A stretch of 62,701 nucleotides of DNA from Alphaproteobacteria bacterium (lineage in GTDB: Bacteria > Pseudomonadota > Alphaproteobacteria > Elsterales > Elsteraceae). This document shows positions 18,318 through 44,571 of this stretch, piece after piece (within the stretch, counting starts at the first letter, position 1; the number at the start of each line of letters is the position of its first letter). Below the pieces are notes generated by a model. That model was not told the DNA's origin. It saw only the letters and a program-made list of their open reading frames with translations, and made no database searches. Location of the stretch: contig JAAFIC010000008.1 of assembly GCA_013298565.1 (NCBI GenBank), forward strand, positions 1 through 62,701. The letters run 5' to 3'. The position numbers and the translations under genes are program-made.

Positions 18318-18350
18318 AAGGGCCGCCCGTTCCACCGAGTGGCCCTTTTA
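18318..18350 (+). terminator. Terminator of the MATE gene
   Basis: AAGGGCC (18318-18324) pairs with GGCCCTT (18341-18347), followed by TTT. It lies seven bases after the MATE stop. It abuts the composite hairpin element, so this junction carries both a classical terminator and the repeat. Confidence 0.65.
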
Positions 18351-18488
18351 GAGCCGCGCGCCTTAACTCTGGCGCGGCTCTATAAGCCGCCATTGCGGCG
18401 GCGGCCAAGGGCACGGATGCGCCCGCCCGGCGAGGGCTAAAAAATAACCTATAGCGTCGTGCGTCTAATTTAACGCACGACGCTATAG
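18349..18488. repeat. Composite hairpin element, copy 1 (MATE/upp junction)
   Basis: The element reads, in order: hairpin A with arms AGAGCCGCGC (18350-18359) and GCGCGGCTCT (18372-18381); hairpin B GCCGCC-ATTGC-GGCGGC; hairpin C GGGCAC-GGAT-GCGCCC with one mismatch; the string GGCGAGGGCTAAAA; and a 40-nt hairpin D (18449-18488) with a perfect 16-bp stem CTATAGCGTCGTGCGT and an 8-nt loop. Copies 2 (39976-40114, inverted) and 3 (44404-44571) are nearly identical through A-C. It ends two bases from the upp stop. Confidence 0.85.
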
Positions 18489-23532: not shown

Positions 23533-24024
23533 ATGAGCGACGAAAACCAAACCAACGGTCAAGGCAGCGATCAGACTGAGGCCGCGCCGATTACCATTAA
23601 TGTTCAATATGTGAAGGATCTATCCTTCGAGAACCCCAACGCCCCTGCAAGCCTAGTGCAGCAAAGCGCGCCGGACGTGGAACTGCGCGTCGATGTTGGC
23701 GCGCGCCAGTTGGGGCCGAACCTGTTTGAAGTGCTGCTCAGCATCAACGCCAGCGCCAAGCATGACGACGATGTGGCCTTCTTGGTGGAATGCGCCTACG
23801 CGGGCGTCGTAACGCTGAATGTGCCGGACGAGCATTTGCAGCCCGTGCTGCTGATCGAAGTGCCGCGCCTGCTGTTCCCCTTCGCCCGTAGCATCGTGGC
23901 GAATGCCGTGCGCGACGGCGGCTTCCCGCCGCTCATGGTGCAACCCATCGACTTCCTCGACCTCTTCCGCCGCCGCATGGCCGCAGCGCAAGCCGAACAG
24001 GACGAAACGGTGGGGACGGCGTAA
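23533..24024 (+). CDS. secB: Protein-export chaperone SecB
   Basis: The 163-aa cytosolic chaperone holds precursor proteins unfolded and delivers them to SecA. Family signatures include INVQYVKDLSFENPNAP at residues 20-36, VDVGARQLGPNLFEVLLSINASAK, VECAYAGVV, and the C-terminal LLFPFARSIVANAVRDGGFPPLMVQPIDF. The gene is full length and its last 85 bases occur again, degraded, at 24837-24910 beyond a toxin-antitoxin pair. Its original terminator is probably the one at 24916-24953. Confidence 0.97.
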   Translation: MSDENQTNGQGSDQTEAAPITINVQYVKDLSFENPNAPASLVQQSAPDVELRVDVGARQLGPNLFEVLLSINASAKHDDDVAFLVECAYAGVVTLNVPDEHLQPVLLIEVPRLLFPFARSIVANAVRDGGFPPLMVQPIDFLDLFRRRMAAAQAEQDETVGTA

Positions 24025-24025
24025 A
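23941..24025 (+). repeat. secB 3' end, intact copy of a direct repeat
   Basis: These 85 bases (from CAACCCATCGACTTCCTCGA to the stop codon plus one A) encode the SecB C-terminus. A degenerate direct copy occurs at 24837-24910. The PemK-type toxin-antitoxin genes lie between the two copies. Confidence 0.85.
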
Positions 24026-24043
24026 GGTTGACGGGGTGATCAT

Positions 24044-24073
24044 TTTTACGTAATTTACGCTATATACGTAAAA
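24044..24073 (+). promoter_or_regulatory. Palindromic operator/promoter of the PemK-type module
   Basis: TTTTACGTA (24044-24052) and TACGTAAAA (24065-24073) are perfect inverted repeats 10 bases upstream of the antitoxin start. The centre contains ATTTACGCTATA, and TATATA at 24061-24066 could act as a -10 box. Antitoxins of this type usually repress their own promoter at such a site. Confidence 0.6.
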
Positions 24074-24083
24074 GGAAAACCCC

Positions 24084-24329
24084 ATGACCAGCCCCGTTCC
24101 AGCGTCGGAGTTCTCGCGCAATTTCGGTCGCTATCAGGATCAAGCCATGACCGGCGTCGTCCGCGTCTCCAGTCATGGCCGGATTGTCGGCGGCTTCCTC
24201 TCCCCGGCTGAACTGGACCGCTATGAGCGGCTGAAGCGGCGGGAGCGTGGGGTGATGGTCGTCGGGACGCTCTCTGATGATGTTGTCGCGGATATCACGG
24301 CGGCAGAATACGGTGCCGCCGCCGGATGA
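24084..24329 (+). CDS. Phd/YefM-like antitoxin
   Basis: The 81-aa protein begins SPVPASEFSRNFGRYQDQA, then VVRVSSHGRIVGGFLSPAEL, the beta-strand pattern of Phd/YefM antitoxins (EFSRNF helix, V.V..HGR..GG.LSP). The C-terminal part (after residue 50) would be the toxin-neutralising tail. The start codon lies downstream of a palindromic operator, and its stop overlaps the toxin start (ATGA). The module lies between two copies of the secB 3' end. Confidence 0.78.
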   Translation: MTSPVPASEFSRNFGRYQDQAMTGVVRVSSHGRIVGGFLSPAELDRYERLKRRERGVMVVGTLSDDVVADITAAEYGAAAG

Positions 24330-24760
24330 CCCTGCCCGTTCCCAGGCCGGGCCTCGTCATCCGCTACGGTTTTTTATGGAGCCATGAAGCGGCGCGGGGA
24401 CAGACGGAAGCCGCAAAAGATCGTCCCTGTGCCGTTATCGTCGCGGTCCGCAAGACCCCGGAGGGCGATCTACGCACCATCGTTGCGCCCATCACCCATA
24501 AGCCGCCGGACGATCCGGCAGCCTCCATCGAACTGCCCGCCCCCTTATGCCGAACACTCGGGCTTGAGGGCGGTCGGCACTGGCTACGCTTCGATGAGCT
24601 GAATGGGTTTGCATGGCCAGGCTTTGACCTGCGCCCGTTACCCGGCACGGAGGGTCAGTATGACTATGGGATGCTGCCCCGCGACCTGTTCGAGACCGTG
24701 CGGCGCGCCATCCTCCAACGTCAACAGGCCCAGCGCGGAACAATCCTGCCGCGCGACTGA
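24326..24760 (+). CDS. PemK/MazF-like toxin
   Basis: The 144-aa protein begins PVPRPGLVIRYGFLWSHEAARGQ and contains KDRPCAVIVAV and TIVAPITHKPP, the strand pattern of the PemK/MazF mRNA-interferase fold (G..IRY..L, RP..V..., ..v.PIT...). The N-terminal insert WSHEAARGQTEAAKD is typical of the longer alphaproteobacterial PemK-like group. Coupled to the upstream antitoxin by a four-base overlap. RNase activity is inferred from family resemblance. Confidence 0.68.
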   Translation: MTLPVPRPGLVIRYGFLWSHEAARGQTEAAKDRPCAVIVAVRKTPEGDLRTIVAPITHKPPDDPAASIELPAPLCRTLGLEGGRHWLRFDELNGFAWPGFDLRPLPGTEGQYDYGMLPRDLFETVRRAILQRQQAQRGTILPRD

Positions 24761-24836
24761 AGGGCAGAGAGACTCTATGCGGCCTTAGCAAGAGCGATAG
24801 CGAACAGCACACCAAGAGCTTGGCGGAAACAGGGTC

Positions 24837-24910
24837 CAACCCATCGACTTCCTCGGCCTCTTCTGCCGCCGCGCAAGCCAAACAGGAAGAAACGGTGGGG
24901 ACGGCGTAAA
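24837..24910 (+). repeat. Degenerate second copy of the secB 3' end
   Basis: The 74 bases match the last 85 bases of secB (23941-24025), including the stop codon, with an 11-base deletion and four substitutions. Both copies end in GAAACGGTGGGGACGGCGTAAA-type sequence (last 22 bases the same in order). After this copy comes a strong terminator that fits secB, so the intervening 0.8 kb appears to have been inserted at the end of secB. Confidence 0.85.
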
Positions 24911-24915
24911 ACGAA

Positions 24916-24953
24916 AAACCCCGCCCTGGGGAATGAGCCTCGGGGCGGGGTTT
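24916..24953. terminator. Bidirectional terminator, probably the original secB terminator
   Basis: AAACCCCGCCC (24916-24926) pairs with GGGCGGGGTTT (24943-24953), with A and T runs outside. It is now used by the toxin-antitoxin transcript and by the convergent minus-strand gene ending at 24960. Confidence 0.82.
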
Positions 24954-24959
24954 GCAATT

Positions 24960-25358
24960 TTAAGATAATTGCCGGAGCCTTCCGGGATAGGCATCCCAAA
25001 ATGGATGATGGGCTTGGGCCATATGAGCAGCAGACAAAATTGCTATATCGCTACTGCAGAAAGGTGCAATATCGGGCCAATCATAGCTCGTTACATCTAT
25101 CCGCATCGCATCTTTAAGATTATCTGGCATTCTGTGTGACAGGCACCCTGGTCCTGGTTCCCCCGTTTGTGCATTCACGGCGCATATCTGAAGTGAAGGA
25201 AGGTTATTGATGCCACAGTAAACTTGTATAATATATAAAAACAACCTGGCCGAAAGTGGATTTGTGCCTACTATCGCCGCAAGGTCACCATATGTAGTTT
25301 TAGTATTGTTACGGGCGCAATTCACGATGGTTGGCCAAATCTGAATGGCTCTTTCCAT
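24960..25358 (-). CDS. AT-rich gene with TYGDLA motif, alkyltransferase-like DNA-binding relative
   Basis: The 132-aa protein contains TTYGDLAAIVG at residues 21-31, followed by an RLFLYIIQVYC segment, LPSLQICAVNAQTGEPGPG and FWDAYPG near the end. The TYG.LA..VG block and the LP.L...VN..TG.PG block recall the winged-helix part of alkyltransferase-like (MGMT/ATL) proteins, without a PCHR active site. Related small proteins are often seen near restriction or HNH genes. The GC content is well below that of neighbours, suggesting transfer. Function unknown. Confidence 0.6.
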   Translation of the reverse strand: MERAIQIWPTIVNCARNNTKTTYGDLAAIVGTNPLSARLFLYIIQVYCGINNLPSLQICAVNAQTGEPGPGCLSHRMPDNLKDAMRIDVTSYDWPDIAPFCSSDIAILSAAHMAQAHHPFWDAYPGRLRQLS

Positions 25359-25449
25359 TTATAGTTCCCAATCCATTTATACGCCTTTCGTTGTTCATGA
25401 AGATAAATAGCTAAAATTATTCCTAAGTAATTTTGATACCGTCCCGCAT

Positions 25450-30910: not shown

Positions 30911-31246
30911 TCAGGCGACATCCTTCCCCAAACCAAAGAACCGCTGAATGCTTGCGTTAATGATCGCCATCGTGTCTGGGGTCAACTTTCCAAAGACGCT
31001 ACCAACTTTTGCGCGTGGAACCGTCATTGCCCGATCAATCATGACCTGTGAGGGCTTCCGCAAGCCATTCTCGGTATCAGGCTGAACGATAATACGGATC
31101 AGGTTCGCCTCATGAACGTCGCTGGTGAGTTGCAAGACCGTGACGGAAGGAAGCTCGGCAAAGGCATTGTCTTGAATGACCAGCGCCGGGCGCGGCTTAC
31201 CGTAGTCGCCGCTGACGGAAATCGTTATCAAATCACCACGCTTCAT
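30911..31246 (-). CDS. MazF/PemK-type mRNA interferase toxin
   Basis: The 111-aa protein begins MKRGDLITISVSGDYGKPRPALVIQ, the MazF/PemK signature (RGD, KPRPALV), followed by TVLQLTSD and later GLRKPSQVMIDRAMTVPRAKVG, with the conserved Ser-Gln-Val and Asp. These toxins cut mRNA at short sites. Length and motifs are intact. Its start overlaps the antitoxin stop by four bases. It is convergent with the XRE remnant, only two bases apart. Confidence 0.88.
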   Translation of the reverse strand: MKRGDLITISVSGDYGKPRPALVIQDNAFAELPSVTVLQLTSDVHEANLIRIIVQPDTENGLRKPSQVMIDRAMTVPRAKVGSVFGKLTPDTMAIINASIQRFFGLGKDVA

Positions 31247-39205: not shown

Positions 39206-39979
39206 ATGACCATGACAGTCCCCGTGGTGTTTTCCCCCGTGGTGTTTTTGCACGGCCTTGGTTTGGATGGGCGCTGCTGGACGCCGCAGATCGAAGCCTT
39301 ACGCGCCCAAGGTATCGCGTGCCACGCTTGGACGATGCCGGGTCATGCCAGCGCGCCTTGGGACGGGCAGCCACTGAGTTTTGCCGGTTTGGCCACGGGT
39401 CTTCTCGATTTTCTGGATACACATAAAATAGACACAGCGCATCTGGTCGGGCATTCGATGGGCGGCATGCTGGCGCTGGAGGTGGCGGCGACCGCGCCGC
39501 AGCGCTGCCGCTCGCTCACCTTAATCGGCAGTGCCGCCCTCTTCGGCAGTGCCGATGGCAGCTTTCAGCGCGCTTTTCTGGCGGAACGCTTAGGGCCGCT
39601 CGATGCAGGGCAGCGCCTAGCCGGTCTTGCTCCAGCGCTGGTGGCAGACCTCTGCCTGCCAACGACCCCGCCAGACGTGATGTCGGAGTGTGTGGAGGCA
39701 ATGGCGATGATGGATGAAGCCGCTTACCGCGCCGCGCTCGCGTGCCTCGTCACCTTCGACCGGCGCGCGGCTTTGGCGGTGCTTCCCATGCCCGTGCTCT
39801 GCCTTGCAGGCGAGCGCGACCGCCAAGCGCCGCCGCAGGGGGTGGAGCGCATGGCGGGGAAGATTCCGGGCGCGCGGTTCTTATGTATCCAAGACGCGGC
39901 GCATCTGATGATGCTGGAAGCGCCGGGGGCCGTTACTCAGGCAATCCGTGATTTTGCGGCTGAGATAAAGTCAGCCTAG
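39206..39979 (+). CDS. Alpha/beta hydrolase
   Basis: The 257-aa protein has the alpha/beta-hydrolase fold: oxyanion-hole VVFLHGLGLDGRCW at the N-terminus, nucleophile Ser in LVGHSMGGML near residue 82, acidic residue in CLAGERDRQAPP, and the catalytic His in DAAHLMMLEAP near residue 232. The substrate is not evident; similarity to lactone or ester hydrolases such as 3-oxoadipate enol-lactonase is general. It is the last gene of the ribF-pyrF-accD-folC run. Its TAG stop lies inside composite hairpin element 2. Confidence 0.82.
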   Translation: MTMTVPVVFSPVVFLHGLGLDGRCWTPQIEALRAQGIACHAWTMPGHASAPWDGQPLSFAGLATGLLDFLDTHKIDTAHLVGHSMGGMLALEVAATAPQRCRSLTLIGSAALFGSADGSFQRAFLAERLGPLDAGQRLAGLAPALVADLCLPTTPPDVMSECVEAMAMMDEAAYRAALACLVTFDRRAALAVLPMPVLCLAGERDRQAPPQGVERMAGKIPGARFLCIQDAAHLMMLEAPGAVTQAIRDFAAEIKSA

Positions 39980-40114
39980 AGCATCGTGCGTCAACGATGA
40001 CGCAAGACGCTCTAGTTTTCTTTTAGCCCTCGCCGGGCGGGCGCATCCGCGCCCTTGGCCGCCGCCTCAATGGCGGCTTATAGAGCCGCGCCAGAGTTAA
40101 GGCGCGCAGCTCTA
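39976..40114. repeat. Composite hairpin element, copy 2, inverted (hydrolase/phzF junction)
   Basis: Relative to copy 1 the order is reversed. The 40-nt hairpin comes first (39976-40015; arms CTAGAGCATCGTGCGTCA and TGACGCAAGACGCTCTAG with two mismatches), then TTTTAGCCCTCGCC, then GGGCGC/GCGCCC, GCCGCC/GGCGGC and the AGAGCCGCGC-type hairpins in reverse complement. The two ends overlap the stop codons of both flanking genes: TAG of the hydrolase at 39977-39979 and the phzF stop at 40112-40114. Confidence 0.85.
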
Positions 40115-41005
40115 AACCTGCATCATCCCTTCTAGCACAAACACAACAGCCCCGCCCAGAAGCGTGCGGGTGCCGGTATCTTCCACGAAAAGCTCGCCGC
40201 GCCGGGCGCTCAGTTGGCGGGCACGGAGTTTACTCTTGCCCAAGCGCGCCGCCCAATAGGGCGTAAGGATACAGTGGAGCGACCCGGTTACAGGGTCTTC
40301 GGTGATGCCTGCTTTCGGCGCGAACATGCGGCTGACAAAATCCACATCGCCATGATCGCCACGGGCGATGGCCGTCATCGAAACTTCATTCGTCTCGGTC
40401 CAGCCTGCCGCCGTGCCTGCCGCCGTGAGCGACACTGAGCGGTGATTGATAGCGGCGACTTTCGTCAGATCCGGTTGGGCGTGTTCGACCGTTGCAGCAT
40501 CCCGCACGAGGGCGACCAGCCGGTATGCGGCGGTTGGACTGCACAGCAAAGCGAGCACTTCTACGCCGAGTGCATCCGCCACTTGCGCCAACAGCGCCAT
40601 ATCGTCGATGACATCCGGCACATCGCGGGGGAAATCCAGCCGATAGCCGGGGGTTCCATCGGGAAGAGCGATTTTATCCACATACAGCGGGCCGCTGAGG
40701 CTGTGAAAGGTGACGCGGTTGGCGCTCGGCTCCAACCGCTCCAGCACCACCGCAGCACTGGCGAGGGTGGCGTGCCCGCAAAGCTGCACTTCAAGCGCGG
40801 GAGTAAACCAGCGAATATCATACTCCACCACAGGGCCGGGGCGGCGCTGGATGAAGGCAGTTTCCGACAGGTTGTTTTCGGCGGCAATCGCCTGCATCAG
40901 TGCCGCTGGCAGCGGCTCCGTCAGCGGCATGACGGCGGCGGGGTTACCGCGAAACCGCTCAGTCGTGAAAGCATCGAGTTGATAGAACGGCAGCAACAGG
41001 CTCAT
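40112..41005 (-). CDS. PhzF-family isomerase/epimerase-like protein
   Basis: The 297-aa protein has the PhzF fold signatures: YQLDAFTTERFRGNPAAVMPL at the N-terminus, AAENNLSETAFI with the catalytic-type Glu near residue 46, WFTPALEVQLCGHATLA, and the C-terminal mirror RMFAPKAGITEDPVTGSLHC. Members isomerise phenazine precursors or act on unknown small substrates. No phenazine genes are nearby, so it is a generic family member. It is translationally coupled to the upstream GNAT gene (ATGA overlap). Confidence 0.87.
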   Translation of the reverse strand: MSLLLPFYQLDAFTTERFRGNPAAVMPLTEPLPAALMQAIAAENNLSETAFIQRRPGPVVEYDIRWFTPALEVQLCGHATLASAAVVLERLEPSANRVTFHSLSGPLYVDKIALPDGTPGYRLDFPRDVPDVIDDMALLAQVADALGVEVLALLCSPTAAYRLVALVRDAATVEHAQPDLTKVAAINHRSVSLTAAGTAAGWTETNEVSMTAIARGDHGDVDFVSRMFAPKAGITEDPVTGSLHCILTPYWAARLGKSKLRARQLSARRGELFVEDTGTRTLLGGAVVFVLEGMMQV

Positions 41006-42936: not shown

Positions 42937-44406
42937 ATGACCGCTTTGCTCGATGCTCCCGCCCGCAACGCTGGCCCATTGGCCCCCGCCCGTTCGGGGG
43001 ATAGCTGGATACCGGACCTAAGCCGCTTTAACGGGCCGCGCTATAAGGCGATTGCCGATGCGCTGGCAGCGGACATCGAGCAAAACCGCCTCCCCTCCGG
43101 CACGCGGCTACCAACGCACCGCGATCTTGCGTACCGGCTGAAGGTGACGGTCGGCACGGTCACGCGGGCCTATTCCGAGGCGGAAAAGCGCGGTTTGATT
43201 GGGGGGGAAGTTGGGCGCGGAACCTTTGTGCGGCCCCGGTTGGAGCCAGTTACCGCGCAAGCCCTGAACCCGGCAGACGATTTGATCGACCTAGCCATAA
43301 ATGTGTCTGCCAATAACGTGGGGAGCGAGGCCGAGTCCCTAAGCCGAACGCTGACAGATATTAGCCTGAGCGGGGCAGTTCAGCCGTTTTTATCTTATCA
43401 GCCGCACCTTGGGATGCCCGCGCATCGGGCGGCGATGGCGCAGTTTATCGCCCGGCCTGGGTTTACGCCGGAGCCTGAAACCGTGTTCCTCACCTCCGGC
43501 GCGCAGCACGCGCTGCTGATGGCGCTATCGGCGGTGGCGGCACCGGGCGATACTATTGCCTGTGATACGCTCACGTATGGCGGGCTGAAATCGGCAGCGC
43601 GGCTCATGCACCTTCGCACCAAGGGCCTCCCCTCGGACGAAGCCGGGATTGTGCCGGAAGCCTTCGAGGCCGCCTGCCGCGAAGGGTTGGTAAAGGCGCT
43701 TTACTGTATGCCGACCATACAAAACCCAACGGCGATTATCTGGAGCGCGACACGCCGGGCGGAAATTGCCGCCCTCGCCCAGCGCTACCGCGTGGCAATT
43801 TTGGAAGATGATGTCTATGGGTTTCTCGTGCCCGAAGCCCCCTTGCCCCTGCACGCCTATGCCCCCGATCAGGTCTATTATCTCAGTTCAACGTCGAAAA
43901 GCCTCGCGGCGGGCCTGCGGATTGGCGCGCTGGTTGCCCCCGGCGATGCGGCGGCACGGATTGCCAGCGGTGTTCGCACAACAGTGTGGATGGCACCGCC
44001 ACTGATGGCCGAAATCGTTCGCCGTTGGGTAGAAGATGGGACAGCGCAGCGACTGATCGAAGAAAAGCGGATCGAAGGTACCGCCCGTCAAGCCCTGGCC
44101 CGCCAGGCGCTTGGTGCTTACGGCCTAATCCCGCGCGCCTGTCATCCGAATGCCTATCATATGTGGCTCGATCTGCCGGAAGGCTGGCGTGACGATGTGT
44201 TGCTGCCCGCCGCCCGCCGCGAGGGCGTGATCCTCTCCCCCACGTCGGCCTTCTGCGTCGGGCGCACAGTGAGCGACGGCGTCCGCGTCGCCCTTGGCAC
44301 GCCGCGCAGCCGGGCGGATGTCGTGCGGGGGTTCGATATTCTAGGGCGACTATTAGGCGCGAACCGCAAGGCGGCAGATTTAGCGGTGGAAGAGAGTGTG
44401 ATCTAG
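42937..44406 (+). CDS. MocR-type regulator (GntR HTH fused to aminotransferase fold)
   Basis: The 489-aa protein starts with a GntR winged helix at about residues 30-100 (YKAIADALAADIEQNRLPSGTRLPTHRDLAYRLKVTVGTVTRAY), then a fold-type I aminotransferase domain: TSGAQHALLMAL, YCMPTIQNPTAI, ILEDDVYGF and the PLP-lysine in SSTSKSLAAGLRIG near residue 325. MocR proteins sense amino-acid or PLP-derived ligands. The neighbouring DUF1127 gene and repeated boxes suggest autoregulation. Its TAG stop lies at the edge of composite element 3. Confidence 0.9.
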   Translation: MTALLDAPARNAGPLAPARSGDSWIPDLSRFNGPRYKAIADALAADIEQNRLPSGTRLPTHRDLAYRLKVTVGTVTRAYSEAEKRGLIGGEVGRGTFVRPRLEPVTAQALNPADDLIDLAINVSANNVGSEAESLSRTLTDISLSGAVQPFLSYQPHLGMPAHRAAMAQFIARPGFTPEPETVFLTSGAQHALLMALSAVAAPGDTIACDTLTYGGLKSAARLMHLRTKGLPSDEAGIVPEAFEAACREGLVKALYCMPTIQNPTAIIWSATRRAEIAALAQRYRVAILEDDVYGFLVPEAPLPLHAYAPDQVYYLSSTSKSLAAGLRIGALVAPGDAAARIASGVRTTVWMAPPLMAEIVRRWVEDGTAQRLIEEKRIEGTARQALARQALGAYGLIPRACHPNAYHMWLDLPEGWRDDVLLPAARREGVILSPTSAFCVGRTVSDGVRVALGTPRSRADVVRGFDILGRLLGANRKAADLAVEESVI

Positions 44407-44571
44407 GGCCGCGCGCCTTAACTCTGGCGCGGCTCTAGAAGCCGCCATTGAGGCGGCGGCCAAGGGCGCGGATGCGCCCGGCCAAGCGCTTGGCGCGTCA
44501 AACGCACCTGGCGGCGAGGGCTAAAATAAAGCTAGAGCATCGTGCGTCATAGTTGACGCACGATGCTCTAA
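44404..44571. repeat. Composite hairpin element, copy 3 (MocR/sdaA junction)
   Basis: Same orientation as copy 1. The first hairpin (GGGCCGCGC/GCGCGGCTCT), GCCGCC-ATTGA-GGCGGC, and GGGCGC-GGAT-GCGCCC are followed by an extra segment of about 30 bases (44480-44511) containing the palindrome CCAAGCGCTTGG, then GGCGAGGGCTAAAA. The terminal hairpin (44533-44570) has a perfect 17-bp stem TAGAGCATCGTGCGTCA and a 4-base loop. The sdaA stop codon (44568-44570) lies in the stem, and the MocR stop is at the left edge. Confidence 0.85.

Follow-up and report, generated by a model that had tools for sequence, protein, structure and literature searches.

Background

Restriction-modification (R-M) systems and toxin-antitoxin (TA) pairs are both addiction modules. 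How chromosomal TA modules that carry neither transposase nor integrase reach genomes and settle in them is the question addressed here. Among the closest systems described, R-M systems are reported to duplicate on the order of 100 bp of target sequence when they insert (PMC3874152, PMC3031569, PMC1643837), where Nobusato et al. 2000 (Gene 259:99) and Furuta et al. 2010 are cited as the primary sources for long target duplication. In the literature searched only R-M precedents and reviews were found for this mode of insertion, and no description of it for a TA pair. A second relevant case, as portrayed in the sections of PMC2654758 dealing with it, is the ccdO157 islet of E. coli, a lone TA pair between core genes, variable from strain to strain and free of any mobile element. 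In addition, some TA pairs are known to be under the control of SecB-type chaperones (PMC5105189, PMC6377645).

The locus studied here, in which a Phd-MazF pair lies behind the core gene secB, has features of several of these systems. It resembles the R-M insertions, as far as the cited excerpts describe them, in that a small addiction-type pair is surrounded by a direct repeat of its target of about 100 bases, in that relatives hold the empty site and in that no recombinase is linked to it; it differs in its cargo, a Phd-MazF TA pair, in its target, the 3' end of a core gene, and in the divergence of the two copies. The likeness to the ccdO157 islet stops at the duplicated gene end, of which those sections of PMC2654758 give no description. 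As with integrative elements at the 3' ends of tRNA or core genes, the end is regenerated on one side and a fragment stands on the other, but, unlike those elements, the insert is without a recombinase, measures just 0.8 kb and lies between copies with the host lineage's own changes. Finally, gene order, overlap, MazF fold and operator repeats are those of MazF/PemK-Phd type II TA modules, whereas the toxin, judged by profile scores under both the Pfam and the NCBIfam cut-offs, belongs to a divergent subfamily.

Results

The repeated secB end

The features of the locus are collected in Table 1, where positions refer to the window, that is, the whole stretch of 62,701 nucleotides analysed. Comparison was made with two genomes of the same genus, G001 and G002; the SecB protein is 86-92% identical to those of its same-genus relatives.

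Table 1. Positions of secB, the inserted module and the repeated gene end in the window
Feature	Positions	Strand	Details
secB	23533-24024	+	Intact; Pfam SecB E 1.3e-49; 3' end is repeat copy 1
Repeat copy 1	23934-24025	+	secB 3' end including the stop codon and the base after it; 92 bases
Inserted segment	24026-24829	+	804 bases; GC 0.62, secB-like; missing in both same-genus relatives
Operator-like palindromic TACGTA repeats	24043-24073		5' of the antitoxin; fold z -3.6
Putative antitoxin, 81 aa, Phd/YefM type	24084-24329	+	Pfam PhdYeFM 20.3 bits, below the curated cut-off
Putative toxin, 144 aa, MazF/PemK fold	24326-24760	+	AlphaFold model pLDDT 91.5
Repeat copy 2	24830-24910	+	Decayed secB 3' fragment, 11-base deletion; 81 bases
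Terminator hairpin, originally of secB, now behind the TA pair	24916-24953	+	-33.6 kcal/mol, z -5.2; similar one in G002

A first-pass annotation of this DNA, made from the letters alone, had described the last 85 bases of secB (23941-24025) as recurring at 24837-24910, altered by four substitutions and an 11-base deletion, directly before a strong terminator. This description is exact, the terminator behind copy 2 being a hairpin of 16 pairs. On the left side the homology goes on for another 7 bases, starting at 23934 and 24830 and adding two mismatches; in all, the match holds six substitutions and the 11-base deletion. Since the pair scores E 9.5e-20 when the whole window is compared with itself by BLAST, which reveals just one further repeat family, a distant element in three copies, the repeat is not due to chance. 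A misassembly in the simple form of an assembly chimera is unlikely, since the copies differ by those six substitutions and the deletion and lie inside a 62.7-kb contig. The three-copy element (18347-18488, 39976-40116 on the minus strand and 44404-44570) is 142-167 bases long, occurs in both orientations at 77-94% identity, ends in a palindrome of about 40 bases and looks REP- or MITE-type.

The empty site in same-genus relatives

In G001 and G002 the terminator follows within a few bases of the secB stop codon, with neither TA module nor repeat, and neither genome holds a copy of the toxin. An insertion between secB and its terminator had been proposed in the first pass, together with a comparison of the region downstream of secB in related genomes, and this comparison places the insertion there, the site being empty in both same-genus relatives. 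That the whole clade might have the module here but lack the repeat, which the first pass named as a refutation, is ruled out as far as these two relatives go. The secB of G002 is 90% identical to the present one at the DNA level and its terminator is recognisably the one now found downstream of copy 2. Collinearity of the three same-genus genomes is lost past this terminator, and the right-hand comparison stops there. Among 29 other secB loci examined, none has a repeat of the secB end.

The gene to the right of secB (right of 24960) is a different one in each of the three genomes, which marks a synteny breakpoint; by sequence reading, it encodes an ABC-type binding protein in G002 and is acetyl-CoA-synthetase-like in G001. 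In the window, the segment directly behind the terminator (24960-25440) is AT-rich, with a GC content of 0.43 against 0.60 for the window, and contains a minus-strand ORF of 132 aa with no match in Pfam, NCBIfam or PADLOC.

Ancestry and decay of the two copies

With G002 and G001 as outgroups for the polarity of changes, copies 1 and 2 have in common five or six changes and a 3-base insertion that are absent from both relatives. Beyond these, copy 2 has four private changes, all of them protein-altering, and the frameshifting 11-base deletion, while copy 1 has one or two within the alignable part. The last 88 bases of secB are 87% identical to G002, against 91% for the rest of the gene, and are not markedly more divergent. 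Since changes of this lineage are common to both copies, the duplication is younger than the split from G002, and both copies derive from the resident secB or from that of a very close strain. On the same comparison, copy 2 has decayed since the duplication and copy 1 keeps secB intact. The first-pass reading that the gene end had been carried or regenerated holds in one respect, as the end has been duplicated and secB left intact; an end carried in by the element, as in tRNA islands, is not supported, because the shared lineage-specific changes point to duplication of the resident gene. Insertion of a TA module with duplication of the resident gene end fits better than an integrating element that carries the gene end.

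The inserted module

The insert is little more than the TA pair: 17 bases precede the operator and 69 follow the toxin. No inverted repeats were found at its ends, and besides the two TA genes it contains no other, integrase or recombinase included. The Phd-PemK-like module without recombinase that the first pass had recognised between the copies is thus borne out, as an 81-aa Phd-like antitoxin followed by a 144-aa toxin whose start lies inside the antitoxin stop codon (ATGA overlap). Of the palindromic promoter ascribed to the module, the palindrome TTTTTACGTAATTTACGCTATATACGTAAAA does lie in the operator-like region, whereas a search for a sigma-70 consensus promoter found none. The toxin scores 16.2 bits against Pfam PemK, under the cut-off of 23.1. 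Its AlphaFold model gave no significant match with Foldseek alone, and in a second structural alignment matched many MazF chains with Z 10-11.8 over about 100-113 residues (Z 11.8 over 113); the toxin thus has the MazF fold. The pair may be an active TA system.

Homologues of the pair are scattered over the Alphaproteobacteria at unrelated places, some of them on plasmids; the antitoxin homologues adjoin homologous toxins and are likewise preceded by similar operator-like repeats. In the same genome the toxin subfamily occurs at three further places (C120, C7 and C51), none adjoining secB and none with flanking gene-end repeats. The source genome (G000, 3.0 Mb) is rich in TA genes, with 13 ParE-family and 4 PemK-family matches in addition to the further members of the toxin subfamily. 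A second PemK/MazF toxin gene lies in the window at 30935-31243 on the minus strand, without flanking repeats.

Gene-end repeats at other TA loci

For each of 163 alphaproteobacterial TA loci besides the secB locus, the sequence lying left of the toxin was looked for on the right-hand side in direct orientation, gene identities being assigned with Pfam and ARAGORN and gene-end duplications being sorted from paralogues by eye. Candidate repeats, 43-222 bases long and taken from a flanking chromosomal gene or from sequence near it, were found at eight of these loci. In five they comprise the 3' end of a gene: purA (L312; 77 bases, 96% identity), proB (L295; 82 bases, 94%), gatB (L276; 43 bases, 95%), transketolase (L097; 63 bases, 78%) and adenine deaminase (L121; 59 bases, 81%). 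The others are the 3' half of a tRNA-Arg gene with downstream sequence (L040; 182 bases, 79%), a gene 5' end (L139; 222 bases, 97%) and sequence downstream of a gyrase-A-type gene (L146; 88 bases, 91%). In L040 (1176-2413) a related Phd-MazF pair stands between the tRNA-Arg gene and a repeat comprising its 3' half and some 135 bases of downstream sequence, with no integrase between the tRNA-Arg copies. Empty sites were sought at L121 and L139 too; the downstream sequence of L121 is particular to that genome within its genus, and the host of L139 is the sole genome of its genus in the comparison. Nor is secB alone in this respect, as other TA modules have the same arrangement at purA, proB, gatB, transketolase and tRNA-Arg.

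No gene-end duplication was found in 136 controls, made up of 68 acetyltransferase loci, 24 secB loci and 44 off-centre positions, the last scanned with slightly stricter settings. Raw repeats (at least 40 bases, 75% identity) occur at 12 of the 163 TA loci against 1 of the 136 controls (p 0.008), with p 0.05-0.09 when the gene-centred controls alone are taken; the excess at TA loci is suggestive rather than conclusive, and the contrast modest. Several repeats were not counted as gene-end duplications, namely a three-copy hairpin repeat (L118), a weak GC-rich match (L054), tandem parDE copies (L191), paralogous genes (L277, L313) and the tandem paralogues of two GNAT loci (L242, L263). L191 belongs to the source genome itself (G000:C62:9000-14000), where a parDE-type pair is duplicated in tandem, with 92% identity over 273 bases.

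The copies are 804 bases apart at secB and about 660-1206 at the other eight loci, within a survey that detects spacings up to about 3.3 kb, and the scanning of 27 loci out to 10 kb added to the two module-sized repeats only two weaker ones, at 6-8 kb. The insertion unit seems to be the TA module itself, the module-sized spacing arguing against eroded islands.

Discussion

On balance, we consider it probable that a horizontally acquired Phd-MazF module of about 0.8 kb inserted at the secB 3' end in a single event with a target duplication of about 90 bases. The module, with little else, would have arrived horizontally and landed at the end of secB, insertion and duplication taking place together; the left copy would then complete secB, while the right copy and the original terminator would end up behind the toxin gene, the module probably borrowing that terminator. 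As the module lies on the secB strand with no terminator between them, secB transcripts may run through into it. Addiction to the antitoxin would retain the islet, leaving the second secB end, which has no use, to decay. The duplication itself could have come about through a staggered break followed by fill-in, or through template switching in repair; Ku-dependent end joining was rejected, no Ku gene being found in the source genome or six relatives. The direct repeats of 92 and 81 bases around the insert, and the single target copy without insert in G001 and G002, are those of insertion with long target duplication. Two observations are harder to reconcile with such an insertion. The L121 copies resemble each other no more than they do other species, which misfits a fresh duplication at that locus, and in five of six gene-end pairs a perfect match of 18-50 bases lies on the stop-codon side, as an attachment core would.

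The main rival is recombination at gene ends by an enzyme acting in trans: a tyrosine or similar recombinase, supplied from elsewhere or since lost, would have integrated the module with the 3' end of secB as its attachment site, regenerating the gene end as happens at tRNA genes. It keeps this place because of the stop-side identity and the L121 distal copy, which resembles an in-frame foreign orthologue, both being what an attachment site would give. Also in its favour, the repeat at secB stops one base past the stop codon, and the related pair in L040 lies between copies of a tRNA-Arg 3' end; the 22 identical bases on the stop side at secB would be given by a recent duplication as well. Nevertheless, we hold it unlikely, while still deserving of serious attention: the insert has no recombinase gene, the two secB copies have host-lineage changes in common, the 29 other secB loci examined are without the repeat, the insert always has the size of one TA module, and some seven different gene ends would each need an enzyme of their own.

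A history in two steps, in which the secB end was first duplicated locally in tandem, independently of the TA genes, and the module inserted between the copies afterwards, would explain why both carry lineage-specific changes. It is nonetheless quite improbable, since copy 1 has no terminator and the module fills the junction exactly; the TA genes would have had to hit the precise junction of two copies, tandem repeats of the secB end are absent from the 29 other loci, and the same arrangement recurs at other TA modules. Very doubtful, too, is a Campbell-type event, in which a circular donor recombines homologously with the secB end and becomes integrated, or else an illegitimate recombination assisted by homology. 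Two secB ends would indeed be left around the insert and a close strain could serve as donor, but that donor must already have held the TA genes beside a secB end, and no other remnant of it is present. A chaperone-controlled, SecB-dependent TA system (TAC), suggested by the adjacency of secB and the pair on a common strand, was rejected as having hardly any probability, since secB occupies its ancestral position, where the pair is a newcomer, and the 81-aa antitoxin has the length of homologues far from secB, with no chaperone-addiction tail.

Conclusions

Insertion of the Phd-MazF module with duplication of the resident secB end leaves, in the duplicated gene end, a dated and readable scar. 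The occurrence of similar duplicated gene ends around other TA cassettes suggests that a TA module can be a unit of movement even when it encodes no recombinase. Tentatively, and as a possibility rather than an expectation, type II TA modules in general may be regarded as mobile units, that is, bare two-gene cassettes with no recombinase of their own, which would prefer the ends of conserved genes and restore the end through a duplication of 40-220 bases. If a large survey bears out the pattern seen at secB, purA, proB, gatB and transketolase, a mode of movement so far known for R-M systems would extend to TA pairs, and such gene-end sites could be used for testing the mechanism by which TA modules move.
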